Virus record (IMG/VR): IMGVR_UViG_3300035199_001173
Location: 1 to 42,284 of that record
DNA: 42,284 nucleotides
Source of the DNA: a virus
Reading direction: 5' to 3' (one strand)
Below, piece after piece: positions 1 through 25,108 of the stretch (positions are counted from its first letter, which is position 1; every line of letters begins with the position of its first letter). The notes below the pieces were generated by a model. The model did no database searches, had not been told where the DNA came from, and saw only the letters and a program-made list of their open reading frames with translations. The position numbers and the translations under genes are program-made.

Positions 1-1272
1 TTACCGCGCATTTGCATATTCCTCGCACGTGGTGCGATCAAAAGTGAAACTGATGAGATATTCGCGTGGGAAAAGCAGGTACGTGTCTACATAGGTTGCA
101 CCTGCTTGAAGGAATGCAAGATGGGTGGGGGAGAGGCAAATTGACCTTAAGCGTGCATCGTAAAACTCATACATTTTTTCTGTCAGGACTGTGTCATTCG
201 CGAAGTCTTCCGGTGGGAAAGTATAAATTTGCTGCCTTACTGAGTCAGTAACTCTTCCTTCCACAATGAAGGAGGGATTGTTGTACTCACGTTTCAAATA
301 TTCTGCATTTGATGTTTGAAGGAGAGATTCAAGATCTGAAACCGCAAGTTGTCCGTTGGCGGCCGCGATGGTCGCTGGAAACTGTGTCGCGCAGGTTTCT
401 CTATTCAGCATGTAGGACCCGAGTTCCGTTTCATCGAGAGCCAAGAACTGCACTTGAACCACTATGCCCGCGGCCAGGAGGCTGTTGATCTGAGGTAGTT
501 CGCAATATTGGCTAACCTTGTCGGCATCAGGATCGTCCAGTACTGAACGAATGCCTTCTTGCGCGTAGAAGACTTTGCGCAAGGTGATGCCCATTGCTTC
601 TGATCTGGCAAAGCCCAATCCTTTTGCATCACGTCCAGAAGGTTCGCTAGCTTCCGCAAGCCGTACGATGCCTTCCAAGAGAGGGGTTTTGTTGGGATCT
701 TGAGCTGCGTCGAGGAAGGTCTGTTCTGCGGCTTCCCAGTTGATGGAAGTGCTAGAGATCGAAAGCTGGTTGGCTTCCTGCGTAATTTTGAAAGTCAGAA
801 AAAGGATAGAAAGCCCGATAGCAATACCGGCTGCAACACCAATGATGTATTGAGCATTGCGCGGGCCCGAGGGCTCTATTGCCTTCTTAAAGAACAACAC
901 AAGATTGACGAGGGGGACGATTCCCATCCAGGCATGGCGACCGTGCCCAAATGCACTGACTGAACGGCCATGCGAAATGACACCGAGCAGGTATCCAATA
1001 GCGGCGAAGCTGAAGACCTCCGCACAAAGCATAAGCCAAACGAGCCCGTGTTCGTTGGCTCCATTTGCGGCCAAATGCAAAAAGGCAATAAGTCTGTAAG
1101 CAAGAATGATGAGTGTGAAGTAGACAAAGTAGAGCAGTCGACGGAGCGTCCAGACGCTTTTTTGTCGTCTTCCAAGAGCGATGAGAAAGCCGACAAGTAG
1201 GACGGCATAGGGCGCGAGGCGACTAATCTGTGGGTCTGAAACCAGCTCTACAGCTAACTCTTCAATTGACAT
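1..1272 (-). CDS. Multi-TM protein with two C-terminal two-Cys repeats (paralogue A)
   Basis: Protein of 423 aa if started at ATG 1272 (MSIEEL), which has GGAG about 6 nt upstream; a TTG 12 nt earlier is less likely. The first ~160 residues hold about five hydrophobic segments (roughly 20-34, 46-66, 78-99, 113-128, 139-160), including a GHGRHAWMGIVPLVN stretch. Two degenerate copies of the repeat shared by the next six genes follow, each with a Cys after a helix and a Cys at the end (SQYC/ETC and SIC/TTC). It ends CEEYANAR, the family C-terminus. It is last in the minus-strand cluster, 36 nt after its neighbour. It alone has a membrane domain in place of the signal peptide, so it may anchor or sense for the secreted paralogues (inference). 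Function unknown. Confidence 0.8.
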   Translation of the reverse strand: MSIEELAVELVSDPQISRLAPYAVLLVGFLIALGRRQKSVWTLRRLLYFVYFTLIILAYRLIAFLHLAANGANEHGLVWLMLCAEVFSFAAIGYLLGVISHGRSVSAFGHGRHAWMGIVPLVNLVLFFKKAIEPSGPRNAQYIIGVAAGIAIGLSILFLTFKITQEANQLSISSTSINWEAAEQTFLDAAQDPNKTPLLEGIVRLAEASEPSGRDAKGLGFARSEAMGITLRKVFYAQEGIRSVLDDPDADKVSQYCELPQINSLLAAGIVVQVQFLALDETELGSYMLNRETCATQFPATIAAANGQLAVSDLESLLQTSNAEYLKREYNNPSFIVEGRVTDSVRQQIYTFPPEDFANDTVLTEKMYEFYDARLRSICLSPTHLAFLQAGATYVDTYLLFPREYLISFTFDRTTCEEYANAR

Positions 1273-1308
1273 AAAGGTCTCCAACTCGATGGGCCAGACG
1301 TGGATGGT

Positions 1309-2376
1309 TTAATCGGCTACAGGCAATGCCTCGCAGGCGGGCTTGTCTACGGTGACAGAACCTAGAGATTTTCCCTCTGGCTGCTTATAGGAAAATACAA
1401 TCGTTGCGCCTGCCTTTATCAGAGGTCCATAGAGCATCGAGAGACATACAGTGCTGGTTTGGTGCAGCCGAAGGGGTGCCAACATGATGGTTCCTTCCGG
1501 TGGCACATGAACTGTGTAGCGAAGGGTTGTATCGGTGCTCTCTGCTTTCACGATGGTGAGTTTCTCATTAACCTGCCTTGGAAACTCTTCCTCCGTTAGT
1601 TCCTGAAGATAGCTCTCCAGACTTTGCGACTGAAGAACCACATCTGCGGCAGGTGTTTCGCATATCTCCTGATTGAGAACGATAATCGCAAGTTCCTCTC
1701 CGCTGGGTTCTATATAGAGAAACTCAAGTGTCGCCCCGGTATCAATGAGCGGCCCTACGACCTCAGAGCTGCAGAATTCTTCCAGAAGCTCAAAACGCGA
1801 GACGCCAAGCTTAAACGGGACGTTGGTATCGACTTGGTAGGTGTAACGTAAGGTCTTTCCCTCAGCCTGGGCACTGACGAGAGATTCCGGTGCATTTGGG
1901 TTCGTCGGCGACACAATAGGTGTGAAGTCTCTCAAAAGCGTCTCTACGCTTTGGGTTTCAAGCAGTACGGCCATTGCAGGCATTTCGCAGATCTTTTGAT
2001 CAACCGTGATGAGGGCAAGTTCCTCCCCGTCAGGGCGGACATAGAGGGTCTCTACTGTCGCACCTGCATTGATCAGCGGAAAATTTAGGCCATCTGCATC
2101 ACAGTGCGCCTGTAGATGTGAATATCTCACTTTGTTGGTAAAAAAGGGTTTGTCGCCATCAACCTCAAGCGTAAGCCGCATGGTTTTGCCCGCAGCCTCA
2201 AACTTGGTGGCAGTTGCATGCTTGCCCGAGCGGTAGGGCGAGAACGTAGCAACCAGACCTTGAAGGAATTCTTCGATGTCTTCCTCGGCAATTGGTTCTG
2301 CCGCGCGGAGCGGTGAAGACAACGTGGTGCCCAGCAGCAAGACTACACATAAGCGCACGAGTGAATTATTGCGCAT
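1309..2376 (-). CDS. Secreted three-repeat two-Cys protein (paralogue B)
   Basis: The start is ATG 2376 (MRNNSLVRLC, 355 aa). It begins a clear signal peptide (MRNNS...SSPLRAAE) and lies inside the stop region of the upstream gene (11-nt overlap). A longer in-frame start would lie inside the neighbour's coding region. After cleavage there are three ~105-residue repeats, each with the pattern LR-x-T-x-V, Cys, GA-x-x-E, (R/E)P-x-GE-x-L, VD-x-x-x-C. All three keep both cysteines. The C-terminus is ACEALPVAD rather than the family CEAYANAQ, and the next gene is separated by 36 nt instead of overlapping. Probably periplasmic; I cannot assign a function or name a family with certainty. Confidence 0.85.
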   Translation of the reverse strand: MRNNSLVRLCVVLLLGTTLSSPLRAAEPIAEEDIEEFLQGLVATFSPYRSGKHATATKFEAAGKTMRLTLEVDGDKPFFTNKVRYSHLQAHCDADGLNFPLINAGATVETLYVRPDGEELALITVDQKICEMPAMAVLLETQSVETLLRDFTPIVSPTNPNAPESLVSAQAEGKTLRYTYQVDTNVPFKLGVSRFELLEEFCSSEVVGPLIDTGATLEFLYIEPSGEELAIIVLNQEICETPAADVVLQSQSLESYLQELTEEEFPRQVNEKLTIVKAESTDTTLRYTVHVPPEGTIMLAPLRLHQTSTVCLSMLYGPLIKAGATIVFSYKQPEGKSLGSVTVDKPACEALPVAD

Positions 2377-3091
2377 TTGCTCTCGCTTTGCAGGCTGCTT
2401 CATCTACCGCAAGCAGAGCCAACACCTCCCCATTTGGACGACGGTAGAAACTCTCTAATACCGCACCCTCTTGCAAAAGGAAGAGAAGCGACCCTTCAGC
2501 ACATGCTTCATCCATGAGGTGCGTGCGTTTCTCCGTTTGGGAGAATGCTGCCCCGTCTCTAACCTCATATGTAATCCGCAAAACATTGCCGGTTACATCG
2601 GCTGCAATCGAGGTCTCGTCTTCTGATATGGGGCCAAACGTAAGCTGAGCTGTGAGAGTGCGAAGAAGCGTTTCTACACTAAGTGGGCCGGTGGCCTCTT
2701 CCGGAGGGGCTGGCTTCGCGCCGCTATGTATATCGCATGCGGCAAGGTCAACGGCGATGAGCCCTGGCTCTTCTCCATTCGTGTGCGTGAAAAGAAATTC
2801 AAAGACAGCACCTGTGGCCAGTCTCTCTGGCTTGCTGCAGAATTGATCCAACATGGATTTTCGGACGACGCGAAGCGAGAAGAGCGATTCATTCTCGACC
2901 CGGTAGGTTATGCGTGTGGTGTTGCCTACTCTTTCTATATTCGTCTTCACCACAACTTCCTCTGCGCTTATCTGGGAATCATCGCTGTTTGCGGCCGACG
3001 CTTGTGCGTGCAGGCCGAGCGCGAGCGAGAAGAAGAGAAAGGCGATGAGGGCGTGGCGTGGGCGTGCTGACATTTTACTGGTCATTTGCAT
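2366..3091 (-). CDS. Secreted two-repeat two-Cys protein (paralogue C)
   Basis: Start candidates are ATG 3091 (MQMTSKM), 3085 (MTSKM) and 3073 (MSARP). All give a signal peptide with core ALIAFLFFSLALG and an HAQASA-like cleavage site. I report the longest; 3085 has the better GAGG spacing. The 3' end of the upstream gene overlaps the start. Two repeats follow: the first (Cys pair DQFC/AACD) is shorter in the Cys-to-GA segment, the second (DEAC/AACK) is typical with RRPNGEVLALLAVDEAAC. It ends ACKARANAQ, whose last codons contain the next gene's ATG. Expected to be soluble in the periplasm; role unknown. A long upstream in-frame extension is discarded because it would overlap paralogue D by more than 300 nt. 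Confidence 0.82.
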   Translation of the reverse strand: MQMTSKMSARPRHALIAFLFFSLALGLHAQASAANSDDSQISAEEVVVKTNIERVGNTTRITYRVENESLFSLRVVRKSMLDQFCSKPERLATGAVFEFLFTHTNGEEPGLIAVDLAACDIHSGAKPAPPEEATGPLSVETLLRTLTAQLTFGPISEDETSIAADVTGNVLRITYEVRDGAAFSQTEKRTHLMDEACAEGSLLFLLQEGAVLESFYRRPNGEVLALLAVDEAACKARANAQ

Positions 3092-3827
3092 ATTCCTCGC
3101 AGGCAGTATCATCAATGGTGAACCTGCCCAAATCTTCACCGTCCGGGCGGACAAAGACATACTCAAAGGCAGCACCGTCTTCGATGAGGCTGCGATAAAG
3201 GGCCAGCCTGCATGCTTGTGCTGCATAGAAGCTATACGCTTGTGCGTGCGCGAGGGACCCCTCTTTGTTGTAACGGATGGTGGTCTGCAATTTTGACCCG
3301 ACGACATCGTGCGCAATGACAGTGACGGCGCTGTTGGGAGCTGACGTCGGGATGTCGAGGGCCATGTCTTGAAGCACCAGTTGGACGTCTTGTGCAGAAG
3401 AGCCAGCTTCACAGGATGCCCGGTCAACGGTCACAAGCAGGAGCTCCTCTCCATCGGTGCGGATAAAGTGATCCTCCAGTGTTGCCCCGGCATTAATGAG
3501 TGCGCGCGATGGCTCGTCTGTAGCGCAGTGTATTTTCAAACGGGTATACCGTACCCGATTTCGATAGAAGGGAGTGTCTGCCTCACTTTGATAGGTGAGG
3601 CGCAGGGTTGAACCCTGTGCTTCCACTTTGGTTATGAGCGTATACTGATCAACGCGACGGGGCGTGGTCATGCCGGAAACCATGATTTGAAGCGTCTTTT
3701 CTATATCACCGCTAGCCTCTATGGCCTCCGTGATGCCTTCTGTTACTTCTGTCGCCTGGAGCGGAGATGCGATCATCGCGCCCAGCAGAATGGCCGCGCA
3801 TAGGCGTGTGAGGGGGTTATTGAGCAT
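3075..3827 (-). CDS. Secreted two-repeat two-Cys protein (paralogue D)
   Basis: The 250-aa product starts at ATG 3827 (MLNNPLTRLC). This overlaps the stop of the upstream paralogue by 11 nt and sits behind a GCGAGG ribosome-binding site encoded by that gene's CEAYANAQ tail. Signal peptide ends near SPLQATE. Two repeats follow: the first has Cys pair KIHC/RASC and IRTDGEELLLVTVD, the second has AQAC/DTAC and VRPDGEDLGRFTID. It ends CEEYANDQ. Overlap, co-orientation and shared signal peptide indicate translational coupling in one transcript with its paralogues. Function unknown. Confidence 0.85.
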   Translation of the reverse strand: MLNNPLTRLCAAILLGAMIASPLQATEVTEGITEAIEASGDIEKTLQIMVSGMTTPRRVDQYTLITKVEAQGSTLRLTYQSEADTPFYRNRVRYTRLKIHCATDEPSRALINAGATLEDHFIRTDGEELLLVTVDRASCEAGSSAQDVQLVLQDMALDIPTSAPNSAVTVIAHDVVGSKLQTTIRYNKEGSLAHAQAYSFYAAQACRLALYRSLIEDGAAFEYVFVRPDGEDLGRFTIDDTACEEYANDQ

Positions 3828-5259
3828 TCGCATATGCCTCGCAGGCTGCCTGGTCAATACTGATGAGGCCCAATTCTTGACCTTCAGGACGGGTAAAGAA
3901 ATGTTCAAAGATGGCCCCGTTTTCGATGAGCGCTGAAGACAGATCACTGGTGCAGCTCTTCTCTAGACGAACCAAACGCCTCTCATTCAGGTGCAAGTGT
4001 GCGGCGTCCGCCACGTGATAGGTGGTGCGCAAGGCCAGGTCACGAACACCGGCCCCGATAAGAGAAAGGTTGGCTGTAACAGCTTTTGGCCTCGCAATTC
4101 GTGCAAGCTCAAGAAGCATGGCCTCAACGAGATGTGGTGCGAGCGCGCGTTCCTCTCTGATAGCTTGTACGGTCTGTTGTGCTTCGCATGTCAGCAGGTC
4201 AACGAGAAAACTGCCAAGCGCGTCTCCATCGGGACGTGCATAGACGATCTCATATGCAGCCCCGCCCTTGAAAAGCTCGAGATAATCGTCGGACTTACAT
4301 AAAGCCGCCGCCCAGGCCATTTGTTTGGAGGCCAGGTTGATAGGGACACCCTCTCTAAGGTGATTGCTGACGAGCAAAACATTGCCGTCGACTTTCGCAG
4401 AGACGATTGCCTCATCGTCCGACGACGGCCCGAGTGGGAACCGATCTGCCAGGTCTTGAAGGTGGTATTTCAAATCTTGGGAGCGTAGGCCGCGCCCTCC
4501 AGGGAGGGGACGCCCTTCCACATAAGCCTCCAACATCTTCTGATCAATTGTGACCAGGCCGAGCACCTCACCGTTTGGACGGCTGTAGAAATATTCCAAC
4601 ACCGCTCCGGCTTCGATGAACCTGCGAACGCCTGCTTCTTTCAGAGTTTGTTCTACTTGGCCGGTAAAAACCTCTTCGAGATCAAAGAGGAAGGGGCCGT
4701 CGAAATGGTAGGAGGTCCGCAATGTTGTGCCGCGTGCGCGAGCGCCGATGATCGTGTAATGCTCATTGACGCGCTCGCGTTTCCTATTTGCCGCCCAATT
4801 TTGCAAAGTACGCCCTATATACCCTGTCGTTAAAGCTTGGATGGCAACGGGTTCTCCAGCGGCATGTGCTTCACATTCCGTCTGACTGACAGTGGATACT
4901 CCTAGGGTTTCGCCATTGGGGCGGCTGTAGAAGTTCTCAAACGCCGCACCTTCCTGAAAGAGGTTGAGCAATGCGTCGCCGGTACACAATTCTTTTACAA
5001 GAAAACGGTGTTTTGCCAGCAACGAGAAGGGGACCTCATCTTTCACGCGATGGTTAAAACGCAGGGTGTTGCCATTCGCTTCAACAGAGGTTGTGACCTC
5101 ATCGCCTGTTGTCGGACCTAGAGAAAACTGGTCCGCGAGGTCTTGAAGTCGCTCTTCTACGCTTTGTGTGCTTTCAGCCCCCGCCGCCTGGAGCGGAGAC
5201 GAGATTATCGCGCTCAGCAGTATGACTGCGCATAAGCGCATGAGGGAATTATTGCGCAT
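3817..5259 (-). CDS. Secreted four-repeat protein (paralogue E), one repeat lacking both Cys
   Basis: Longest secreted member (480 aa). It starts at ATG 5259 (MRNNSLMRLC) with a signal peptide ending SSPLQAAG. Four repeats: 1 (KELC/TEC), 2 (no cysteine at either position; ends TIDQKMLEAY), 3 (AALC/LTC) and 4 (KSC/AAC). Repeat 2 closely resembles repeat 3 of the next paralogue (YFYSRPNGEVLG versus YHYSRPNGELLG), which also lacks both cysteines. The upstream gene ends AWDAFSNAQ, so the usual GAGG box before this start is lost; only a weaker GGGA remains 11 nt upstream. Ends CEAYANAQ, supplying the site for paralogue D. Periplasmic location inferred; function unknown. Confidence 0.85.
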   Translation of the reverse strand: MRNNSLMRLCAVILLSAIISSPLQAAGAESTQSVEERLQDLADQFSLGPTTGDEVTTSVEANGNTLRFNHRVKDEVPFSLLAKHRFLVKELCTGDALLNLFQEGAAFENFYSRPNGETLGVSTVSQTECEAHAAGEPVAIQALTTGYIGRTLQNWAANRKRERVNEHYTIIGARARGTTLRTSYHFDGPFLFDLEEVFTGQVEQTLKEAGVRRFIEAGAVLEYFYSRPNGEVLGLVTIDQKMLEAYVEGRPLPGGRGLRSQDLKYHLQDLADRFPLGPSSDDEAIVSAKVDGNVLLVSNHLREGVPINLASKQMAWAAALCKSDDYLELFKGGAAYEIVYARPDGDALGSFLVDLLTCEAQQTVQAIREERALAPHLVEAMLLELARIARPKAVTANLSLIGAGVRDLALRTTYHVADAAHLHLNERRLVRLEKSCTSDLSSALIENGAIFEHFFTRPEGQELGLISIDQAACEAYANAQ

Positions 5260-6319
5260 TTGAAAACGCGTCCCATGCCTTTTGATCAATTGTGACGATT
5301 CCCAGAAGCTCACCATTAGGGCGGCTGTAGTGATACTCCAGCAAAGCACCGGATTTGAGGAGAGTGCGCAATTGTTGGCTCTTGAAACCGTGTATCATAT
5401 GGACGTTGTATTTTTCTTCCAAGCTGAACGGGTACCCGTCTTCGTGCTGATAGAGGGAGCGCAGGGTGGTTCCGTCCGCTTTTGCCCCAAGGAAAAGCGT
5501 CGCGTTGTCTAGGCGTTGTTCAGGAGCAGCGTTTGCTATGGCCAGCAGCCGATTGGCTAGATCTTCCACATCCGTTAGTACGCCCGCTGCGGGATATGTT
5601 TTGCACGCCTGATGGTCAAGGCGGACAACACCCAATGGGTTGCCGTTGGGGCGTGTGAATACGTATTCCATCACACCGCCGTTTTTCATAGCCGTTACAA
5701 ACGTGTTGTTGGTGCATGTTTCTTCTGTAAGCACCAAACGCCTGTCTTCAAGAGAAAAGCCAGCGCCCTCTGAAACATGGAAAAAGCTACGTAATGTGTT
5801 ACCGCTGGCACTTGCCCTCACACGGGCGAGGCTTGCTGCAAGCTGAACCGGCTGGGTATTGAGAGCTAGATTATGTAGGAAACTCTCAAGCTGTCGGGGT
5901 GTGAGAGTGCGGCCTGCCTCCATCGCTTGCGACGCAGCAACAGCCTCGCACATACGCAGATCGACAATGACGACCCCTAATTGCTCCCCACTCGGGCGAC
6001 TGAAGGAATTTTCAAAGACGGCGCCTTCCTTGAAAAGGTTGAGCAAGACATCCGTGCTACACCATCTAAAAGCCAATTTCGCGCGCGTCATGGTGGCAGA
6101 AAAGGGACCGGCATCCAGGACTTGATATGTGAAACGCAAACTTTTGCCGCGTGATGTGATGGAGGTCGTCGTCAGCCCGTTGGCTGTTTCCCCAACTGGA
6201 AGGCGCTCTGCCAGCATTTGGAGCTGGTCTTCTATGGGCACTGCCGCTTGGAGTGGCAAAGACACCGTCACGCCCAACAGCATGATGGCGCATAGGCGTG
6301 TGCGGGAGTTATTGAACAT
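5249..6319 (-). CDS. Secreted three-repeat protein (paralogue F)
   Basis: 356 aa from ATG 6319 (MFNNSRTRLC), overlapping the stop of paralogue G by 11 nt. Signal peptide with core AIMLLGVTV ends at LPLQAAV. Three repeats: 1 (RWC/RMC, SRPSGEQLGVVIVD), 2 (ETC/QAC, TRPNGNPLGVVRLD) and 3 (no cysteines, YSRPNGELLGIVTIDQKAWDAF). Repeats 1 and 2 resemble the two repeats of paralogue G in the same order, suggesting F arose from a G-like ancestor plus an E2-type repeat (inference from the sequences). The Trp-Asp replacing Cys-Glu at the C-terminus weakens the downstream gene's ribosome-binding site. Confidence 0.85.
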   Translation of the reverse strand: MFNNSRTRLCAIMLLGVTVSLPLQAAVPIEDQLQMLAERLPVGETANGLTTTSITSRGKSLRFTYQVLDAGPFSATMTRAKLAFRWCSTDVLLNLFKEGAVFENSFSRPSGEQLGVVIVDLRMCEAVAASQAMEAGRTLTPRQLESFLHNLALNTQPVQLAASLARVRASASGNTLRSFFHVSEGAGFSLEDRRLVLTEETCTNNTFVTAMKNGGVMEYVFTRPNGNPLGVVRLDHQACKTYPAAGVLTDVEDLANRLLAIANAAPEQRLDNATLFLGAKADGTTLRSLYQHEDGYPFSLEEKYNVHMIHGFKSQQLRTLLKSGALLEYHYSRPNGELLGIVTIDQKAWDAFSNAQ

Positions 6320-7136
6320 TTGTATATGCCTCGCAGGCCTCCCGGTGGAGCCTGACCATGCCGAGTTCTTCTCCATCGGGACGGGTGAAGGAGGTATCAA
6401 AAACGACACCCTCTGCCATAAGGGCAAAGAACATGGGAGTGGTACAGATGCTTTCAGAAAGAGAGCGACGTCTGCCATTCAGGGAGAAGCGGGCACCGCC
6501 CGTCACATGAATGATTCTGTTTAAGGTTTTCCCACTGGCCGTGGTCGTCATGCCGGAAAACTCTGCATTTGTTTTTTGCCCTGCATTGTCAGCAAGATTT
6601 TGAACGACGCTTTCGACAAGGTGCGGCGGAATTGGACGGCCGGCCGCGAAGGCATCAATGGCCTGAAAAGCCTCACACGCCGTTTTGTCGACTTTGATGA
6701 ACCCCAGTTCCGCGCCATTGGGGGTCCGGTATGTATTTTCGAAAACCGCGCCTCTGTTGAAAAGGTCGAGCAACGTTTCCTTGCTGCACCAATTCTGGGC
6801 CAAACCAGCGCTCAACATGTTTCTTGAGAAGTTTGCGCTGTCTTCAACCTGATGATTGAAACGCAACCTATTGCCATTTGATGTGATGGAGGTTGTCGTC
6901 ATGCCATTGGATTTTTCCCCCCGTGGAAAACGCTCCGCCAGCACCAGAAGTATTTCCGCCACGCTATGGTTGCTTGCGGCTCCCGCCGCTTGAACAGGCT
7001 GCAAGGGCATAAGGGTCACGAGCGTGAGCACTAAGAGAAGCTGGAAAAAGGCGTGTCCAATTTGGGGGCCAACCATGTGGGTGCGAATTGGAACCATCGA
7101 CCGCAAACGAAAACCAAACACTAACCTGTTGAACAT
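6309..7136 (-). CDS. Secreted two-repeat two-Cys protein (paralogue G, first of the cluster)
   Basis: 275 aa. The start at ATG 7136 (MFNRLVFG) has GGGGTGG just upstream and resembles the MFNN start of paralogue F. Inner starts (MVPIRTH, MVGPQIG) would give a more standard signal peptide ending PVQAAG, so the start is uncertain. Two repeats follow: NWC...TACEAF and SIC...EACEAY. Each carries a (T/R)PNG or RPDGEELG core. It ends CEAYTNVQ, whose codons carry GAGG and the ATG of paralogue F. As the first gene of a minus-strand run divergent from the DNA polymerase, its promoter should lie in 7137-7334, where I see no convincing -35/-10 pair. Confidence 0.8.
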   Translation of the reverse strand: MFNRLVFGFRLRSMVPIRTHMVGPQIGHAFFQLLLVLTLVTLMPLQPVQAAGAASNHSVAEILLVLAERFPRGEKSNGMTTTSITSNGNRLRFNHQVEDSANFSRNMLSAGLAQNWCSKETLLDLFNRGAVFENTYRTPNGAELGFIKVDKTACEAFQAIDAFAAGRPIPPHLVESVVQNLADNAGQKTNAEFSGMTTTASGKTLNRIIHVTGGARFSLNGRRRSLSESICTTPMFFALMAEGVVFDTSFTRPDGEELGMVRLHREACEAYTNVQ

Positions 7137-7220
7137 TCGCCACCCCTGACTTTTTACACCGACACAACCAAGCCTGAGCCTACTCGGGTAACCAATACTA
7201 TAGCGATCATTTTAGCGATT

Positions 7221-7246
7221 GCCACCAGACCTTTAGGTGCGGTGGC
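7221..7246. promoter_or_regulatory. Long dyad in the divergent intergenic region
   Basis: Between the minus-strand repeat cluster and the polymerase lies GCCACC AG ACCT TT AGGT GC GGTGGC. The outer 6-bp and inner 4-bp stems are perfect, broken by one 2x2 mismatch and closed by TT. Just before it are two TAGCGAT copies (7201-7207 and about 7213-7219). No T-tract follows on either strand, so it does not look like a standard terminator. It could be an operator or an mRNA leader structure for the polymerase transcript. Confidence 0.45.
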
Positions 7247-7334
7247 CAGGTTGCATGCGGCTCGCGTCTACACCCACGCGTGTGTGAGCCCCCACATTTT
7301 CTTTCCCACACCCGACCTCACAAAGGAGCGCCCT

Positions 7335-9134
7335 TTGACGCGTTATATTTTCGATCTGGAAAGCAATGGCTTTCTGGACAAGATGGACATTGTCCACTGT
7401 TTAGTACTGGGCAATGTCGAGACCGGCGCCGTGCATCGCTTTACCCAGACAGGGGACCTGAGTGAGGGCGCCACAATTACCGACGGTCTGGAGATGCTGG
7501 CCACGGCTGATGAAGTGATCGGTCACAACATCATCAAGTTTGATATTCCGGCACTGCAAAAACTCTATCCCTGGTTTCACCCCCAGGGACGCGTGACCGA
7601 CACGCTGGTTCTCTCTCGTCTTATCTGGACCGACCTGAAAGACCTGGACAGTGCCATGCTGCGCGCAGGCAAAGTGGACACGCACCTGTTTGGCTCCCAC
7701 AGTTTAAAAGCCTGGGGCCAGCGCTTGGGCAATGCCAAGGGGGACTTTGCCGGCCCCTGGGATGCCTTTACCGAAGAGATGCTCACCTATTGTGTGCAGG
7801 ACGTGGGCCTGACCCGCACGCTTTACGACCGCATTCTTTCCAAAAACTATTCTCCGGCCGCTATACGGCTGGAGCACCAGGTTGCCGAAATCTGCTGGCA
7901 GATTGAAAAGGCGGGCTTCACGTTTGACGCAGAAAAAGCCATCGCATTGAACGCAGAGCTGATGCAGCGCCGTTCGCAGATTGAGGAGGGCCTTCGAGAT
8001 ATTTTTCCACCCCTTCGCACTGTCACGCTCTTCACCCCCAAAGCCAACAATAAGAAATATGGCTATGTGAAAGGGCAGACCGTTGAGAAAGTCTCCTACG
8101 AGGAGTTTAACCCGGGCTCGCGCCAACAGGTGGCCAAGCGGTTAATGGCACTGGGTTGGGAGCCGACCGAGTGGACGAACACCGGGCTCCCCCAGATTGA
8201 TGATGAGGTGCTGCGCGAGATCAAGAACATTCCTCAAGCAGCACTGCTGGCAGAATATTTCATGCTGCAAAAGCGCATTGGCCAGCTGAGCGAGGGCAAG
8301 AATGCCTGGACGAAGCTTTACAACCCCGCCACGCGCGCATTGCACGGGAGCATCAACCCCATGGGCACGGTGACGGGCCGTGCCTCCCACGCGCATCCCA
8401 ATATTGCGCAAGTGCCAGCGAGCCGCGCTCCCTATGGCACGGAGTGTCGATCGCTCTTTACCGTGCGCGAGGGCGAGGTGCTGGTGGGCACAGACATGGC
8501 AGGGCTGGAGCTGCGCTGCTTGGCCCACTATATGGCGAAATATGACAAGGGTGCCTATGCCAAGCTTGTGGTGGACGGCGACCCCCACACCGAAAACCAG
8601 CGGGCGGCCGGCCTGCCCACAAGGGACCACGCCAAGACCTTCATCTATGCCTTTCTCTATGGAGCAGGGAACGAAAAGCTGGGCAGCCTTGTGGGCAAGG
8701 GGGCAGGGGCTGGCAAAGTGCTGCGCACGCGCTTCCTGAAAAAGACCCCGGCGCTGAGAATGCTGACCGACAGTGTAAAGCGCAAAGCCAAGATCGCCAA
8801 AACCCTGACCGGGCTTGATGGCCGCACGCTGCATGTGCGCTCTGCTCATTCTGCGCTCAACACGCTTTTGCAAAATGCCGGAGCGCTGCTGTGTAAACGC
8901 TGGATGGTGGAGCTGGTGGACCTGTTGAGTGACCAGGGGCTGACGCTCGGCGAAGACTATCGCATCTGCGCCTGGGTGCATGACGAACTGCAAATCGCCA
9001 CCGACCCAAAACACACCAAAATCCTGGAACGTGCCGCACCAGAAGCAGCCGCGCGGGCAGGCGCATTTTTCAACATGCGCGTGCCGATCACCGCGAACGC
9101 ATCCGTTGGCAAAACCTGGGCACAAACGCACTAA
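7335..9134 (+). CDS. T7-family phage DNA polymerase (family A) with 3'-5' exonuclease
   Basis: 599 aa, replicative DNA polymerase of podovirus type, alignable by eye with T7 gp5 along its length. N-terminal exonuclease: D7-x-E9 in FDLESNG, then GHNIIKFDIPAL and DTLVLSRLIWTDLKD, which match T7 closely. Polymerase motifs: A with D387 in GTDMAGLELRCLAHY; B with R430 and K434 in RDHAKTFIYAFLYGAG; C with D550-E551 in WVHDELQ. The start is TTG 7335, preceded by AAAGGAG at optimal spacing; a GTG at 7242 lacks such a site and adds 31 residues absent from relatives. T7-like enzymes use a host thioredoxin processivity factor; the thioredoxin-binding insertion seems short here. Catalytic residues are all present, so the gene looks functional. 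Confidence 0.96.
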   Translation: MTRYIFDLESNGFLDKMDIVHCLVLGNVETGAVHRFTQTGDLSEGATITDGLEMLATADEVIGHNIIKFDIPALQKLYPWFHPQGRVTDTLVLSRLIWTDLKDLDSAMLRAGKVDTHLFGSHSLKAWGQRLGNAKGDFAGPWDAFTEEMLTYCVQDVGLTRTLYDRILSKNYSPAAIRLEHQVAEICWQIEKAGFTFDAEKAIALNAELMQRRSQIEEGLRDIFPPLRTVTLFTPKANNKKYGYVKGQTVEKVSYEEFNPGSRQQVAKRLMALGWEPTEWTNTGLPQIDDEVLREIKNIPQAALLAEYFMLQKRIGQLSEGKNAWTKLYNPATRALHGSINPMGTVTGRASHAHPNIAQVPASRAPYGTECRSLFTVREGEVLVGTDMAGLELRCLAHYMAKYDKGAYAKLVVDGDPHTENQRAAGLPTRDHAKTFIYAFLYGAGNEKLGSLVGKGAGAGKVLRTRFLKKTPALRMLTDSVKRKAKIAKTLTGLDGRTLHVRSAHSALNTLLQNAGALLCKRWMVELVDLLSDQGLTLGEDYRICAWVHDELQIATDPKHTKILERAAPEAAARAGAFFNMRVPITANASVGKTWAQTH

Positions 9135-9683: not shown

Positions 9684-10124
9684 GTGGCGTTTCAGCTCAA
9701 ACCGTTTTTCTCACGCGGCTTCAGGAACAGGGAGACAAGAGCGTGGATTGGCGTCTCTCTATCTGCGCTTGCCTGTGCGTTGGTTTTTACCGTCGCCGGG
9801 TGGGAGCGATCTTCGTCAGGTGGAACCGATCTGCGGTTTTTCTTTCCGCTTGCAGCGTTGGTTGGCGGCATCATTGCGGGGTCGTTTACAGCGGTCCTCT
9901 TCGGCCGCATGGGTGCTAAGGGTTGGCTCCGGGCAGCACTCGGCGCCTTTCTATCAACATTACTTGGCAGCGCGATTACAGGAACGTTTTTAATACCGGT
10001 AATCGGCACCATTTTTGGTCCCCCCATCCTCTTCGCACTCTTTTTTGTAGAGCCTGCTTTGGGTGCCTTGTGGGTGGCCTGCTTTGTCGTGACACATCTG
10101 GTGGCCCGCAGCGCCGCTGAATAG
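9684..10124 (+). CDS. Four-TM inner-membrane protein (cargo gene)
   Basis: 146 aa from GTG 9684, with TTAGGA about 5 nt upstream. Four hydrophobic segments: about 22-40 (IGVSLSALACALVFTVAGW), 51-70 (FFFPLAALVGGIIAGSFTAVL), 79-99 (AALGAFLSTLLGSAITGTFL) and 101-138 (IGTIFGPPILFALFF / ALGALWVACFVVTHLV). Glycine-rich helices; no charged catalytic motif. I do not recognise the family. It sits between the intact DpnD-like gene and a decayed second copy of that gene's 3' end, so it looks inserted. Confidence 0.75.
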   Translation: MAFQLKPFFSRGFRNRETRAWIGVSLSALACALVFTVAGWERSSSGGTDLRFFFPLAALVGGIIAGSFTAVLFGRMGAKGWLRAALGAFLSTLLGSAITGTFLIPVIGTIFGPPILFALFFVEPALGALWVACFVVTHLVARSAAE

Positions 10125-10135
10125 TGGCAAGCGAT

Positions 10136-10187
10136 GAGCGCGATGGTGCTGCATCCCCTATGCGAACGCATGCATTGCGAGACTTCA
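10136..10187 (+). pseudogene. Decayed second copy of the DpnD-like gene 3' end
   Basis: Reading from 10143, the frame gives MVLHPLCERMHCE, against MVLHPARERLH and stop at 9500-9535. Over 36 aligned bases 26 are identical, starting with an 11-base exact block (ATGGTGCTGCA). The stop codon of the intact gene (TAG) reads TGC here. No gene starts from it. It is best read as the remnant of a 3' end separated from its gene by the 9684-10124 insertion, or as a copy brought in with it. Confidence 0.65.
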
Positions 10188-10480
10188 TCCGCCATCCCGT
10201 GCGCTCATCCAGCGAATGAATACATCGTTTCGTTAGCGGCACAACATCGCGTGTTTGTTTTGTAATCGGAGCTGCGGTTCCTGCAACCTAGGTTGGCTTC
10301 AGCGCATTGCACCGTTGACATTCAAAAGGTAGAATACAATCATTAGTATACATAGTATTTGAGGGTTGATTTCTACAAAGACTAATTGGAAATGGTTAGA
10401 TCAATGAGAAATGTGTCAGCCAAGATTTCAAAATTTGTTCTGGCCCTCAAGCGCGCATCCAAATTGGGTGGGGATATGCT
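10188..10480. other. AT-rich intergenic stretch with possible promoter
   Basis: About 290 bp without a credible gene. A consensus -35 hexamer TTGACA lies at 10315-10320; the region after it is AT-rich (TAGAATACAATCATTAGTATAC), but no -10 hexamer falls at the ideal 17-bp spacing. It probably carries the promoter of the 10481-11855 gene pair. Confidence 0.35.
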
Positions 10481-11233
10481 GTGACGGACGAAAGCACAGA
10501 CGATGAGAATAAGTCCGCATCGGTATTCGATGTGGCGGATCGTTGGATGATCCTAATTTTGGGAATCATCCTGATTTCAGTTGTCGGTTTTTTCTTTGTG
10601 TATATTCAGAAGCTGGGTCTATTGGATTTTCCAATCGCAGGTGGTCATGGAGCTGCTGGCGACAAGGATTACAACTATTTCCGTCAGGCGTTAGAATTTC
10701 GAGAGCGGCGTTTGATCGTGGCTCTTACTTTTCGAACCTTTCTCACGAGCTTCGGTTTTATCGTCGGTCTGGTTTTATCGGTGATTGGTGGATTGTTCGT
10801 TCTTAGGAAAGCCGTTGCTGAATTTAGTGCGACTTTCGATACAGGTGATGGCGCTGCTGCCCGCCCTGTGCCAACCGAGAGTGGGATCGAACGTGCCAAG
10901 GGCTCTGTTGTGACAAATTCACCGGGCATCGTATTCATGATCGGTGGTGTACTTGTGATGATCATCACTCAGTATGTAGCCATTCCCATTGGCGCTCCGG
11001 AAGTGTTTCCCGATCAGGCCTATATAGAATGTAGTACGCAAGCTGAAGAGGAAGGAACGTGCCTTATTGCTGGGCGCTCGGAACAGCAAGACGTAGATAA
11101 CTTATCAGAAGCAGTTAAAGTTGTTCAGCGGATACAGGCAGCCTGTGCCAAAGACCCGGAAAACGAAAATTGCCGTGACCTAGAAGGGCGCCTTGAAGAG
11201 CTTGTGTTCAGATTCAACCAATTGGCGGAGTGA
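10481..11233 (+). CDS. Three-TM membrane protein, first of a two-gene unit
   Basis: 250 aa from GTG 10481. The acidic N-terminus is followed by a first TM segment (about 23-45, WMILILGIILISVVGFFFVYI), a second (about 87-108, FLTSFGFIVGLVLSVIGGLFVL) and a third (about 145-168, SPGIVFMIGGVLVMIITQYV). A ~75-residue C-terminal domain then carries four Cys (ECSTQ, GTC, AAC, ENC), likely periplasmic and disulfide-bonded. The SPGIVF...TM core resembles SPGLLFVILGVGLG in the 21471-21845 protein, which also partners a secreted protein, so the two pairs may be distant versions of one module. The ribosome-binding site is a weak GGGG. Function unknown. Confidence 0.75.
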   Translation: MTDESTDDENKSASVFDVADRWMILILGIILISVVGFFFVYIQKLGLLDFPIAGGHGAAGDKDYNYFRQALEFRERRLIVALTFRTFLTSFGFIVGLVLSVIGGLFVLRKAVAEFSATFDTGDGAAARPVPTESGIERAKGSVVTNSPGIVFMIGGVLVMIITQYVAIPIGAPEVFPDQAYIECSTQAEEEGTCLIAGRSEQQDVDNLSEAVKVVQRIQAACAKDPENENCRDLEGRLEELVFRFNQLAE

Positions 11234-11234
11234 C

Positions 11235-11855
11235 ATGGTATTAGAGAAAAAATTATTAGGGTGGATCATTGCGTTGGCCCTCTTTGCTCCCCTTGTGATA
11301 GCCACCCCTCCGCTCGCAAACGAAAAACCAGAGTGCCAGAAATTTGATGGGCACATCGAGGAGAAGCTCAGCCGAGATGACGGCTATAGGAAGCTAGTGC
11401 TGTTAGCCGATAAACTGAACTACGCAAATGGTTATCGATGCGGGTATCGGCGGGCGAAGGATGATCAGAACTTTGCCACTTTGTTGCAGGCCCAAAACTC
11501 ATCTACCTTAAACGGCTCGCCGAGGAACATAGGCAATAGCACATTTATGGAGGGTCTCTTAGATTTGTTGAAAGACCGTGGGGTTAGGGAAGAGCTGCTA
11601 AATGGTCTCCGTGAGGAGCTACTCAGCGATCGAGTTCAATCGAACTGGATAGCCCATGACCTAACTCTCGATGGATTGGATGGTCAAACGCGATATAATG
11701 TAGAACAGAGATTATTGGACAGTCAGAGTTCTCCTCTAGTCGTTCCAATGCAAGAAGGTGGGCAATTAGTCAGTCCAGATCAGGGACAGTTTGAAATTCC
11801 CGGACCTTTGCGTGGAGGAGGGGCCGGGATGCCAGGCGGTGCTCCTCTTCAGTAG
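11235..11855 (+). CDS. Secreted protein, partner of the upstream membrane protein
   Basis: 206 aa from ATG 11235, one base after the TGA of the preceding gene, with GGAG overlapping that stop; translation is probably coupled. Signal peptide (LLGWIIALALFAPLVIATPPLA) followed by a mature domain beginning EKPECQKFDGHIEE, helical and rich in Arg/Glu, with two Cys near the start (PEC, RCGYRR). The C-terminus is Gly/Pro-rich (PGPLRGGGAGMPGG). I do not recognise the family. Confidence 0.75.
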   Translation: MVLEKKLLGWIIALALFAPLVIATPPLANEKPECQKFDGHIEEKLSRDDGYRKLVLLADKLNYANGYRCGYRRAKDDQNFATLLQAQNSSTLNGSPRNIGNSTFMEGLLDLLKDRGVREELLNGLREELLSDRVQSNWIAHDLTLDGLDGQTRYNVEQRLLDSQSSPLVVPMQEGGQLVSPDQGQFEIPGPLRGGGAGMPGGAPLQ

Positions 11856-11870
11856 ATTTCCTAAAGATGA

Positions 11871-11910
11871 AGAGGCCACAGAACTCATTGATTTGAGTCC
11901 CATGGCCTCT
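11871..11910. terminator. Nested hairpin between convergent genes
   Basis: AGAGGCCA (11871-11878) pairs with TGGCCTCT (11903-11910), and inside it ACTCA pairs with TGAGT. It lies in the 72-bp gap between the convergent 11855 and 11928 stops, so it is placed to end transcription from both sides. No T-tract follows, which lowers confidence. Confidence 0.5.
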
Positions 11911-11927
11911 CAGTTGGTTATGTCCCG

Positions 11928-13052
11928 CTAGTCAAATATCGAAGATGCGTCGGACAGATTCCATTTGAAGGCGGCAAGGCCACGTACGTCATCATCTTCA
12001 TTGTCGGCATCGGATCGCCCACCAGTGGACGCAACGAGCCACAAATTTTCCGACAGCCGATATTCAAACGAAACGCCGTACTGAGCGTAGCTGTCGCTCG
12101 GCATGTTGACTGGGTCTGTGAACGTGTACCCGGCCTCAAGGTTGATGGCCGAACGATCCCCAAGCTTGTGCCTCCAGCGGGCACCGACATACCCGGCATC
12201 TTGGTTGAAAAAACCACCGGCCTTACTCACCGCCAACTGATCGACTGTATAACGCGCGTGGGTGATGACCTGACCATCCTTGCCTGAGACGGGAAAAGCC
12301 CAGGAGGCATAGGCGCCGAATGAGTTTTCCTCCAGGCCGGTGAGGTTCGTTCCACCGTCCGCCCAAGCGTAGGCAAGTCCGATGTCCAGGGCTTGGGCAT
12401 TCCAATAATCTCTGCGCCAGTCCTTGTAGCAGGTTTCCTTCATTTCCTTACGGGCCGCATCTTCAATCAGTTTTCTAGCCGCCGGTGTGGCTTCATTGGG
12501 TTTGAGTCTCTGTTGTGCATCGACCGCAGCGTTTGCTACTCGCAGTGAACAACCTATATTGGTTTTCCATGGGTCCCCATTGTCAAGTACATTCCATCTA
12601 AGGCTAGCAGCATATCGATCTGCATCGTTAGTGCTCTCGCCACGTGCACCTACGAGAGATACTTCCATATTGGACAGGGCTCTCACGAAATTGTCACTAT
12701 TGTATTGGCTGTTAGTTACGGAATCGCCAGCTAGCAAGAGGTAAGGTACAAAGGCAATACTAACGGTACTTTTTAGCTTCCCGTTTTCATCGAAAGCGCT
12801 CCTGAAGTCTGTAACAAACTCTTTTGCGGTTCGAGGTCGTAGGGCGGTGTCCGCTGCAACTCCAATCAACGCTAAGGCCGGAGCGTCCGGTACGAGAAAG
12901 TCAAGTCTTCCGTCCTCTTGGCTTCCTTCGGGAGTCTGATCCGTTGCGGCCTGCTGCCCGTCGCTCTGTAAAGGCACCGGGTCAGAATAAGCTGCCGAAT
13001 TGAAGAGACAGAATACCGAAGTGAAGAGTACAAATTTGCTAAAGTGTTTCAT
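11928..13052 (-). CDS. Outer-membrane beta-barrel-like protein
   Basis: 374 aa with a signal peptide (MKHFSKFVLFTSVFCLFNSAAYS). The mature part has alternating strands of barrel type: YAASLRWNVLD, ALDIGLAYAWADGG, SFGAYASWAFPV, QVITHARYTVDQL, AGYVGARWRHKLG, SAINLEAGYTFTDP, YAQYGVSFEYRLS, LWLVASTGGRSD, LAAFKWNLSD. A helical insert (about 175-205) carries two Cys (GC, ETC). It resembles small porin or autotransporter-like barrels but I cannot name the family. It is 6 nt downstream of the 13059 gene, so the two form an operon on the minus strand. Confidence 0.75.
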   Translation of the reverse strand: MKHFSKFVLFTSVFCLFNSAAYSDPVPLQSDGQQAATDQTPEGSQEDGRLDFLVPDAPALALIGVAADTALRPRTAKEFVTDFRSAFDENGKLKSTVSIAFVPYLLLAGDSVTNSQYNSDNFVRALSNMEVSLVGARGESTNDADRYAASLRWNVLDNGDPWKTNIGCSLRVANAAVDAQQRLKPNEATPAARKLIEDAARKEMKETCYKDWRRDYWNAQALDIGLAYAWADGGTNLTGLEENSFGAYASWAFPVSGKDGQVITHARYTVDQLAVSKAGGFFNQDAGYVGARWRHKLGDRSAINLEAGYTFTDPVNMPSDSYAQYGVSFEYRLSENLWLVASTGGRSDADNEDDDVRGLAAFKWNLSDASSIFD

Positions 13053-13058
13053 GGTGCC

Positions 13059-13436
13059 TCACTCGAAAGTAACCAAAAAGAGGATGCTTTTTGCTTGGTT
13101 AAATTTGCCAGCTTGAGAGACCGATTTGGTCCTATCTCCTTGAGAAACTGTCAGAGTTGCGGCGTAGCTTTGTCCGTCGGCTTCACCGGCGGAGATGAAT
13201 GCTCCATCAATTTTGAGTAAAGTGTTACGTAGAGAAGCAACATCATCAGGCATCTGGCGAGTAATGCGATCTTCTTTCCCTTCATCTTTTTCCAACTCGC
13301 GGACAACATTCCAGTCTTGATCGTATAGCGTGAAACGGAAAGCTCCCTTCTGTTTCTGGCCCTTCAGTATAGTGATGGAGACAAGGTCACCTCCCGGAAT
13401 TAGTGGGAAGGTGAGCCTCTCGTCTTCTTCAAACAT
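13059..13436 (-). CDS. Hypothetical protein upstream of the beta-barrel gene
   Basis: 125 aa from ATG 13436 (MFEEDERLTF), chosen because GGGAGGAAA lies just upstream; the 13-residue longer reading has no such site. No signal peptide or TM segment. Predicted mostly beta: LVSITILKG, AFRFTLYDQDW, SYAATLTVSQG, SILFLVTFE, so possibly a beta-sandwich. It precedes the outer-membrane-like gene by 6 nt in the same operon. Family not recognised. Confidence 0.75.
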   Translation of the reverse strand: MFEEDERLTFPLIPGGDLVSITILKGQKQKGAFRFTLYDQDWNVVRELEKDEGKEDRITRQMPDDVASLRNTLLKIDGAFISAGEADGQSYAATLTVSQGDRTKSVSQAGKFNQAKSILFLVTFE

Positions 13437-13555
13437 CCAAATTTCCTCCCGTTGATAGGGCGGGCGGGTGACCATTCTTGCGGGCCCCCTTATCCGCCTT
13501 GAACATCCGTCCCCGGATGTATCGAGAGAAAACCCTAAGCATCGTTAAGTATAAA

Positions 13556-13707: not shown

Positions 13708-14472
13708 ATGACAGTAACATTGTTACTGGACGCGGATATTATCGCGTTCAGGGCCTGTACCATGGCCGAGGTCGAGACCGAATGGGACTTTGATCAGTGG
13801 ACGTTAGACTGCGACCACACCCAAGCCAAAAAAGCTTTCGAAGACACCGTCGACGCGCTGATGGATCAGGCGGGCGCGGACGCCTGTATTCACGCGCTGA
13901 CGGGGCCAGAGAACTTTCGCTACACGGTTGCCCCCACCTACAAAAGCAACCGGGCGAAGGGGCGCAAGCCCCTGGGCTTTGCCGCCTTTAAGGACTGGAT
14001 CCGCGAAACCTACACCGTGAAAGAAACCCCGGCGCTGGAAGGCGACGATGTGTTGGGCATTCTCATGACCCATCCCACCATGGTGCCCGGCACAAAAGTG
14101 CTCTGGTCTGACGATAAGGACCTGAAGCAGATCCCAGGTCTTCATCTGCAAGACAGGCAGGTGGTGGACGTGTCGGTGGCTGAGGCCGACCGCTTTTTCT
14201 ACACCCAGGCGCTCACCGGCGATCCGACCGACGGCTTTAAAGGCTGTCCGGGTGTGGGCGCGGTGAAGGCGGGCAAACTGCTCGACCCCATTCCAACCGG
14301 TACCAGTGCGGCGACCTGCGCCGCCATGTGGCCGGTGATTGTTGAGAGCTACCAGAGAGCCGGACTGAGCGAGGGCGACGCGCTGACCCAGGCGCGGCTC
14401 GCCCGCATTCTCCGGCACACAGACTATGACTTCAAATCCAAAAAGGTGAAGCTTTGGACCCCAACTCTGTAG
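13708..14472 (+). CDS. Phage 5'-3' exonuclease (T7 gp6-like, FEN/PIN fold)
   Basis: 254 aa. The motifs follow phage 5'-nucleases: an N-terminal LLLDADIIAFRA metal site, the basic arch YKSNRAKGRK, EGDDVLGIL, the acidic WSDDKDLKQIPG, then the DPTDGFKGCPGVGAVKAGKLL helix-hairpin-helix element that grips duplex DNA. In T7 the enzyme degrades host DNA and removes primers. AAGAG lies upstream of the ATG. The last 19 nt overlap the dNMP kinase gene, so the replication/nucleotide genes 13708-17274 form one tightly packed operon. All expected acidic residues appear present. Confidence 0.92.
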   Translation: MTVTLLLDADIIAFRACTMAEVETEWDFDQWTLDCDHTQAKKAFEDTVDALMDQAGADACIHALTGPENFRYTVAPTYKSNRAKGRKPLGFAAFKDWIRETYTVKETPALEGDDVLGILMTHPTMVPGTKVLWSDDKDLKQIPGLHLQDRQVVDVSVAEADRFFYTQALTGDPTDGFKGCPGVGAVKAGKLLDPIPTGTSAATCAAMWPVIVESYQRAGLSEGDALTQARLARILRHTDYDFKSKKVKLWTPTL

Positions 14473-15140
14473 ACCCCCAAAAGTCCCGAGACCCCAAGAA
14501 GATCGCCAACGCTATTGAGAGATGGCCCGAGGGCACGCCCAAGCTTGTGAGTGTCTTCTCGCCGGTAATGCAGTCTGGCAAAAGTGAAGTCGCCCGCGTG
14601 CTGGTGGAAGAGTTTGGCTTCACCCACCTGTCTTTTGCAACACCGGTCAAGCGCATGGTCGCCGTGGTGCTGGAAGAGCTTGGCTATTCCGACATGCTGG
14701 TTCGCCACCTGCTCTCTGAGGGCAAAGAAGACCGGCTGGTGCTGTTTGATATTTTGAGAGCCGCAGGCGAGAGCGGCGCGGGTGATGTCACTGCGCGCAC
14801 CATGATGCAGTCTCTGGGCACAGACTGGGGACGCGAGCTTGTGCACCCTTCGCTCTGGGTCCGGCCCTTTGACCGCAAGCTGCTGGACGCCATCACGCTC
14901 GGCAATTCTGTCGTGGTGGATGATATGCGCTTCCCCAATGAATATGACTATGTCGCCACCCGCGGCGGCGTGCTGGTGGAGGTCACAAGACCAAACGTCC
15001 ACCCGACCAACCGGCACCGCTCCGAAGGCCAGCTGCGCGGCCGGCCACGGCACCACGCCATCGTCAATGAGGGAAGCCTCAACGACCTGAAAAACAAAGC
15101 CCGCCGCATTATCACCAAAAAGGGAGACGCTCATGTTTGA
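14454..15140 (+). CDS. Phage deoxynucleoside monophosphate kinase
   Basis: 228 aa from TTG 14454, with AAGGTG 6 nt upstream and a 19-nt overlap with the exonuclease gene. It phosphorylates dNMPs from degraded host DNA for phage dNTP synthesis. The P-loop is SPVMQSGKSEVA (about 35-46). Then FTHLSFATPVKRMV, the lid/nucleotide-binding MMQSLGTDWGRELV, VVVDDMRFPNEYDYVATRGG and VEVTRP follow in the order typical of phage dNMP kinases (the DxRFxNE signature). It overlaps the RNR start by 8 nt. A more internal start cannot be excluded, as the first ~30 residues are not conserved-looking. Confidence 0.9.
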   Translation: MDPNSVDPQKSRDPKKIANAIERWPEGTPKLVSVFSPVMQSGKSEVARVLVEEFGFTHLSFATPVKRMVAVVLEELGYSDMLVRHLLSEGKEDRLVLFDILRAAGESGAGDVTARTMMQSLGTDWGRELVHPSLWVRPFDRKLLDAITLGNSVVVDDMRFPNEYDYVATRGGVLVEVTRPNVHPTNRHRSEGQLRGRPRHHAIVNEGSLNDLKNKARRIITKKGDAHV

Positions 15141-19802: not shown

Positions 19803-20003
19803 TTCTTTCCCCGTATTCACACAAAGAACAACTGCCAGTTTAGCTTGTTTTGTGGGTTAGGGAAGTGATTGGAATTGGCGATTAGGGTGCTGTTTTTTCT
19901 ATTGTTCGTGAACCTGTCAGGGCGGGTCGGGTGCATCAATGACCACAATGCGCTTTCCGCCGAGTACGAGCGGGAGTGCCTGTAGGTGTTGACCGGGAAC
20001 AGG

Positions 20004-20852: not shown

Positions 20853-20926
20853 TGCTACGGTTTCTTTCAGTTACCGCCTGTAACCGCTACATTGACACGA
20901 TATTCTTGACCCGGTCGTCATTAACA

Positions 20927-21478: not shown

Positions 21479-21845
21479 TGTCGTCGCACCCCGCTTTTGT
21501 AATTGGATCGCACGAAAGGTCAGGAATAGTTGCAGGGAGCCTGATGGGTTCATTCGCATTTGTGGATGGTCTGCTGGTCTGCACAAATGTGTTAAACTCG
21601 ACACCTAAAGGTTTGTCGACAGTGATTGCCCAGGCACCCAATCCAACACCCAGGATAACAAACAATAGCCCCGGGGAAGCGCTTTCGAGCGCAACTTTCA
21701 TGCCTTGCCCGTCGGAAGCAAACCTAAAGTCTCCCTTGATGCCCTTTACAAGAGTATCGTGCCCGAGTTTTACAACCAAATAGGCGAGCACCAGTGCGGT
21801 CAGACGAATTAGTGCTGCAGCAATTATGCCGATTGTGATTTCCAT
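21471..21845 (-). CDS. Two-TM membrane protein in the endonuclease I operon
   Basis: 124 aa. TM1 about 4-25 (IGIIAAALIRLTALVLAYLVV), TM2 about 56-75 (SPGLLFVILGVGLGAWAI), then a tail with two Cys (LSCDP, AGCDD). It lies 6 nt after the endonuclease stop and overlaps the next gene by 8 nt, so the three are one operon. The SPG-x-x-F second helix resembles the third TM of the 10481 protein, which also precedes a secreted protein. Function unknown. Confidence 0.72.
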   Translation of the reverse strand: MEITIGIIAAALIRLTALVLAYLVVKLGHDTLVKGIKGDFRFASDGQGMKVALESASPGLLFVILGVGLGAWAITVDKPLGVEFNTFVQTSRPSTNANEPIRLPATIPDLSCDPITKAGCDDNG

Positions 21846-21851
21846 TTGGGT

Positions 21852-22547: not shown

Positions 22548-22657
22548 GTGAAGCTCCCCAATTGTTCTTGAGATGATCTTAGTGATCCGCTCCAAAATGT
22601 GGAGTCTCAATTTCACCATAGTGTCTTGGGTGCTTGTGATTGGGATGACGGTGGGAA

Positions 22658-23630: not shown

Positions 23631-23643
23631 CAGGTGCATGCCA

Positions 23644-25102: not shown

Positions 25103-25108
25103 GCGTCA

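Follow-up and report, generated by a model that had tools for sequence, protein, structure and literature searches.

The first 7,136 bases of the virus record IMGVR_UViG_3300035199_001173 (IMG/VR; 42,284 bases, the whole of which was analysed and is referred to here as the window) are occupied by seven consecutive minus-strand genes, which together encode eighteen copies of one periplasmic domain of about 110 residues. Model and sequence comparison firmly place this repeat in the fold family that unites the AspS/EpsS pilotins with PA3611 (QSregVF), while the function of the array can be proposed by analogy. The explanation that we favour, to which a probability of roughly 0.38 is assigned as a whole, is that a phage-like record bears an operon, seven genes long or longer, taken from a host and carried as cargo, whose poly-domain periplasmic binders would change the envelope of the lysogen and perhaps bring about exclusion. 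By analogy, this arrangement suggests that the virus stocks the envelope of its host with several binding proteins.

Transcription runs from g7 to g1. The first six genes in this order each encode an N-terminal hydrophobic segment resembling a signal peptide, and their products are predicted to be secreted. They are g7 (6309..7136; 275 aa), with two domains at 6654-6989 and 6312-6647; g6 (5249..6319; 356 aa), with three at 5927-6262, 5582-5917 and 5252-5581; g5 (3817..5259; 480 aa), with four at 4852-5187, 4510-4845, 4165-4500 and 3820-4155; g4 (3075..3827; 250 aa), with two at 3390-3725 and 3078-3389; g3 (2366..3085; 239 aa), with two at 2714-3049 and 2369-2704; and g2 (1309..2376; 355 aa), with three at 1966-2301, 1639-1965 and 1312-1638. 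The last gene, g1 (1..1284, starting at TTG 1284 or ATG 1272), encodes a membrane protein in which four hydrophobic segments are followed by two repeats (355-741 and 4-354). The true starts of g6, g5, g4, g3 and g2 lie inside their open frames, at 6319, 5259, 3827, 3085 and 2376, which corrects the earlier annotation. Upstream of g7, the intergenic region 7137..7241, which separates it from the divergent polA, is the probable promoter region and contains one -35/-10-like match at 7225-7197.

The homology of the repeats was examined with profiles that were each built without the gene under test, the search space being set to 2000 sequences. All eighteen repeats were recovered (i-Evalue 8.4e-31 to 2.4e-4), while the best value among the controls, comprising 20 shuffles and one reversal per gene, was 9.6. 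The first-pass annotation had described a cluster of seven genes next to phage genes, all built from the same periplasmic two-Cys repeat, with 2, 3, 4, 2, 2 and 3 copies in six secreted proteins and two in a transmembrane protein; this arrangement is real, its number, order and motifs being confirmed. Identity to the reference repeat is 16-46%, and synonymous sites between repeats are judged to be saturated. Both cysteines, for which a disulfide is predicted, are present in sixteen repeats and both are missing from two, namely the second repeat of g5 (g5r2, 4510-4845) and the third of g6 (g6r3, 5252-5581), a single cysteine never being found. These two Cys-less copies are sisters in the repeat tree (98/81), which indicates that the pair was lost once rather than twice.

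The junctions of the array carry a record of its growth. Along the series from g7 to g2, each of the five downstream genes begins with an ATG placed 11 nt inside the gene before it, start and stop being held in a single ATG-N5-TAA word (6309..6319 between g7 and g6, then 5249-5259, 3817-3827, 3075-3085 and 2366-2376). Before these overlapping starts, as read from the sequence, the codons of the second-Cys region supply GAGG (three of five), GAGA or GGGA. The g2/g1 junction differs, with a gap of 24 nt to the TTG and 36 to the ATG. In the repeat tree, one group unites the first repeats of g5, g6 and g7 (99/76), another comprises g5r4, g6r2, g7r2 and g1r1 (98/94), and g2r1 pairs with g4r1 (96/94). 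Such positional sister groups, together with the overlaps, show at the level of sequence that the array grew by tandem duplication, in which whole genes as well as domains were duplicated. The tree has few columns and long branches (g1r1 and g1r2) and does not gather all 18 repeats into one clade, four changes of the label being required, but a single origin is compatible with it. Moreover, the stop codon of g1 occupies positions 1-3 of the window and the overlap word, read from the sequence, recurs there (1..11), marking the probable start of a next gene beyond the record; the seven genes on the record stand, but as the full extent of the cluster they are probably too few, and the array very likely continues past the contig edge.

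The fold of the repeat was predicted with confidence. AlphaFold2, supplied with an 18-row alignment, modelled one repeat with a predicted local distance difference test score (pLDDT) of 92.9 and the topology helix, three strands, two helices, two strands and helix (a-bbb-aa-bb-a; helix 10-20, strands 24-27, 30-38 and 41-48, helices 56-67 and 71-78, strands 82-88 and 94-100, helix 102-111). The best solved structures in Foldseek were PA3611 (3npd, 5.8e-7), EpsS (6i2v, 3.4e-6), AspS (4ftf, 1.6e-5) and the AspS-GspD complex (5zdh, 1.2e-2). The same entries reached VIA-align Z scores of 13.5, 13.9, 12.2 and 8.9, the next entry falling to 4.9, and for the three with Z of 12-14 the alignment spans 103-106 residues; no account was taken of VIA-align rows with Z below 5 or of the Foldseek rows of low coverage that the three-domain model gave (e.g. 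CidA/CidB). An extract of PMC3542185 describes the same element order for AspS, names PA3611 as its nearest structure, and reports a Cys74-Cys111 bond that joins helices 2 and 4 and is kept in PA3611. The repeat cysteines, reference residues 68 and 105, occupy the same places as this disulfide. In addition, the mature g6 protein was modelled as three successive modules (pLDDT 87.6, predicted template modelling score 0.61). A Foldseek search of BFVD returned nothing at E <= 0.001, an empty result of little weight.

At the level of sequence the same kinship is fainter. The repeat profile, termed A1, matched PA3611 at E 1.9e-5 and AspS only at 0.21-0.22, and the repeats are 12-15% identical to PA3611. 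The Pfam family QSregVF (PF13652; cut-off 23.8 bits) scored 23.8 with g6 and 15.8 with g7 and gave no row for the other five proteins, the g6 site reaching 15.4 in the genome search; against single repeats it matched two of 18, with a best E of 0.008. Of the checks proposed by the first-pass annotation, the profile search reached PA3611 but hardly AspS, and the single-repeat model was confident and showed a fold that is not new. Its statement that no characterised system was recognised holds for the build, which has no described counterpart in the Pfam, PHROGs, NCBIfam and PADLOC scans, and a tandem array of the AspS/PA3611 domain is not described in the open-licence literature on QSregVF, PA3611, pilotins and phage exclusion; it does not hold for the repeat itself, whose match to well-characterised proteins (PA3611, AspS/EpsS) lies at the level of fold and not of function.

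Relatives of the domain were found in bacterial chromosomes. With a match defined as E <= 0.001, A1 hit nine of 385 genomes in the Alphaproteobacteria, the class to which Rhodobium orientis belongs, 17 of 398 sampled from the phylum, mostly in PA3611-like proteins of about 150 residues, and 13 of 297 in one order, with 3/17, 2/23 and 1/1 in smaller groups. None of the first six alphaproteobacterial genomes gave a match even at E <= 1, and a peptide scan of genome contigs and a plasmid survey were empty; these negatives carry little weight. The stronger alphaproteobacterial matches commonly combine a four-helix membrane part with one domain, arranged like g1, and g1 aligns along its length with such membrane-plus-domain proteins at 21-25% identity (e.g. 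L170, L179 and L187), a family to which the Pfam and NCBIfam scans gave no name. One alphaproteobacterial protein (L145/L173) bridges the two families, since it matches both A1 (E 3.3e-11) and Pfam T2SSS_2, the AspS family (1.3e-6, above cut-off). In fuller sequences and under a looser spacing rule, a Cys pair 28-52 residues apart was present in all 43 chromosomal domains scored. These sequence comparisons show that the array is related to alphaproteobacterial chromosomal proteins.

Modest expansions also occur on chromosomes, with two domains in L174 and L191, three domains in two adjacent genes in L193/L200, and two clear domains plus a weaker one in an exported 509-residue protein (L196/L198). 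At L200 6319-9098 a membrane-plus-domain gene pair stands in tandem, its second member being a fusion of two units, which resembles an array in the making. The survey of genomes that had been suggested earlier yielded relatives that are chromosomal and usually single-domain; their neighbours, inspected by eye in seven loci, are unrelated contexts that give no functional clue and in which no genes of the type II secretion system (T2SS) were recognised.

Phage core genes follow the array. PolA (7242-9134) is divergent from it; a FEN-like exonuclease, a dNMP kinase and ribonucleotide reductase lie at 13708-17274, and tail, virion and ejection proteins at 33355-37642. Between these core genes stand two host-like blocks (9684-13475 and 18345-32691) with many exported or membrane proteins, endonuclease I and DUF2971. 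In codon usage the array resembles the accessory genes (r 0.93; third-position GC content, GC3, of 0.55 and 0.56) more than the core (r 0.77; core GC3 0.66). No relative of PolA in viral contigs exceeds 49% identity, and the virion protein at 34278-35903 is about 32% identical to those of podoviruses of Pseudomonas and other hosts, which marks the phage as belonging to a distant lineage. LuxR, the autoinducer synthase LuxI and a PhyH dioxygenase are encoded side by side on the plus strand (24392-26764). The LuxI is nearest, at up to 40% identity, to proteins of Hyphomicrobiales and other Alphaproteobacteria, which, with the alphaproteobacterial kind of g1, points by sequence affinity to a host that is probably an alphaproteobacterium. 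LuxI/LuxR are used in lysogeny control by Phaeobacter prophages (extract of PMC13345283), and their presence beside phage genes here fits a temperate phage.

Under the favoured explanation, the phage would have acquired an alphaproteobacterial envelope family and then multiplied it, so that the periplasm would receive six of the proteins and the seventh would sit in the inner membrane, the set bearing 18 predicted disulfide-stapled domains. The cavity of each domain, formed by helices 2 and 4 over the sheet, may accommodate a helix or a short peptide belonging to an envelope protein, in the manner of AspS-type pilotins; cavity residues that vary by copy would imply several targets, or one target in several forms, and tandem domains would give avidity. 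The cargo of a probably temperate phage could in this way alter the lysogen envelope, most plausibly via components of the envelope or of surface appendages, for example by hindering competing phages. Exclusion through interference with pilus or secretion machines would be the most interesting use. The PADLOC scan assigned no family to any of the seven proteins at E up to 1, an absence from the library that is compatible with a defence role.

The cavity itself offers a hint. For EpsS, it has been modelled to take a secretin helix (extract of PMC6532946). The columns equivalent to EpsS Ile48, Tyr73 and Ile91, placed through a weak alignment, are hydrophobic in 56, 67 and 50% of copies, and that of Tyr89 in 100%. 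The columns of the cavity floor hold ranks 7, 1, 70 and 22 of 112 in variability, and their variability exceeds that of structured columns picked at random (P 0.022). The diversifying binding surface of the first-pass annotation is thereby weakly hinted at: such a pattern would suit copies that bind different ligands, and could equally arise by ordinary divergence.

Several points weigh against the favoured explanation. The domain was absent from the eight other virus records searched whole and from 50 polA-related loci, no credible match was found among named phages (three rows at E 0.2-0.8), and five viral-contig scans, which need near-exact peptides and miss distant relatives, confirmed no relative; no other examined virus record carries the domain, so conserved use by phages is not shown. 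The genes identified on this record, whose ends are missing, include neither an integrase nor a phage repressor, and a temperate life is to that extent only deduced. Furthermore, the cavity signal comprises four positions mapped through a weak alignment, and the holding of ligands, the targets and the phenotype are all proposed by analogy.

The array might instead be host-derived cargo without a phage-specific role, or the phage might be embedded in or misjoined to bacterial DNA, the genes then being an ordinary, fast-duplicating alphaproteobacterial envelope family. We consider this possible, though doubtful. It would account for the codon usage, which places the array with the accessory genes and not with the phage core, for the sporadic chromosomal relatives (9/385 and 13/297 genomes) and for their small expansions; likewise, polA and FEN, about 250 bp apart in the virus locus L025, are separated here by 4.6 kb with host-like genes between. 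Nevertheless, the host-like blocks alternate with polA, FEN, the kinase, ribonucleotide reductase and tail genes, so several misjoins would be needed, and the array abuts polA. A more specific proposal is superinfection exclusion aimed at secretins, in which pilotin mimics would bind the C-termini of pilus or secretion secretins, stop their assembly and block pilus-using phages. The fold is indeed that of secretin-binding pilotins, the virion protein matches those of podoviruses of Pseudomonas and other hosts, and type IV pili are blocked by the phage proteins Tip, Aqs1 and Zip, though through PilB or PilZ (extract of PMC11656802). At least one secretin match was present in 21 of 23 carrier genomes, but equally in 21 of 23 non-carriers; this comparison of 46 genomes took 23 of the 25 distinct carriers (G557 and G813 left out) and 23 non-carriers that were hand-picked, not random. 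With no lipoprotein signal and with three of the four cavity-floor positions hydrophobic in only 50-67% of copies, the proposal seems unlikely. Decidedly unlikely, too, is a related picture drawn by analogy, of phage-diversified multivalent periplasmic traps that would intercept secretins or other envelope machines by their exposed C-terminal peptides ahead of assembly, with g1 retaining what is caught at the inner membrane and different pili and channels being covered by the variable cavities, whereby the cell would be closed to rival phages.

True pilotins or secretin chaperones of the T2SS are disfavoured as highly improbable despite the shared fold and Cys pair, AspS being reached by profile only at E 0.21. 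Read directly in the cleavage region, none of the six exported proteins (g2-g7) has a lipobox Cys after the signal peptide, and GspD exceeded its cut-off in five of 23 carrier and five of 23 non-carrier genomes, a lack of association that concerns the chromosomal relatives and not the host of the phage. The missing lipobox and GspD link make a pilotin role unlikely, and the scattered loci of the relatives, with no T2SS genes recognised in the seven viewed, also speak against it. Somewhat less remote, yet very unlikely, is an action of the secreted proteins on eukaryotic surfaces, as effectors or adhesins, such as has been reported for PA3611 and bronchial epithelial cells. No protein matches better by sequence than PA3611, which also ranks among the top structural matches, and an integrin-linked activity is reported for it (extract of PMC8860233); however, the relation lies at fold level, no export route past the periplasm is evident, and the primary role of PA3611 itself is unsettled, a periplasmic one being suggested (PMC3542185, same extract).

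Compared with known systems, the array shares with PA3611 of P. aeruginosa the fold, the Cys pair and export without a lipobox, whereas PA3611 is one domain from one gene and the array spreads 18 domains over seven linked genes of a virus record. With the AspS/EpsS/GspS-beta pilotins (4ftf, 6i2v, 5zdh; T2SSS_2) it has in common the topology and the helix 2-helix 4 Cys pair, but those are single-domain outer-membrane lipoproteins tied to GspD, in contrast to tandem domains with neither lipobox nor GspD link in carriers. The alphaproteobacterial membrane-plus-domain proteins possess the four-helix N-terminal part and domain of g1, yet are usually single chromosomal genes with one domain, their largest expansions having 2 to 4. 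Tip, Aqs1 and Zip, small proteins set beside the array by description, may share with it the purpose of excluding pilus-using phages. Proteins known to have the AspS/PA3611 fold otherwise consist of a single domain, and the two roles reported for them differ widely, namely secretin pilotin and secreted protein acting on epithelial cells. Here the fold occurs as a duplicated module in a phage array and, on a smaller scale, in alphaproteobacterial proteins anchored in the membrane, which points to a general role as a peptide-binding module in Gram-negative envelopes. The array poses a concrete ligand question for each variant and may represent a new periplasmic route of phage exclusion.

The QSregVF name and the presence of luxR/luxI prompted the idea that quorum sensing controls the array, which found no support. 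Between luxR and luxI stands the best 20-bp palindrome of the window (25105-25130); with at most three mismatches it was found only at 25110 and 27767 and not upstream of g7, and no lux-box-like palindrome was found in the g7-polA intergenic region. The second copy (27767-27782, three mismatches) precedes by about 140 bp a gene for a small exported protein (27923-28450), which is a possible second quorum-sensing target. Elsewhere in the window, a short tandem repeat at 30040-30190 is read on both strands, as EPQ repeats in the plus-strand gene 30031-31167 and as FLW repeats where the minus-strand gene 28447-30234 begins and overlaps it.

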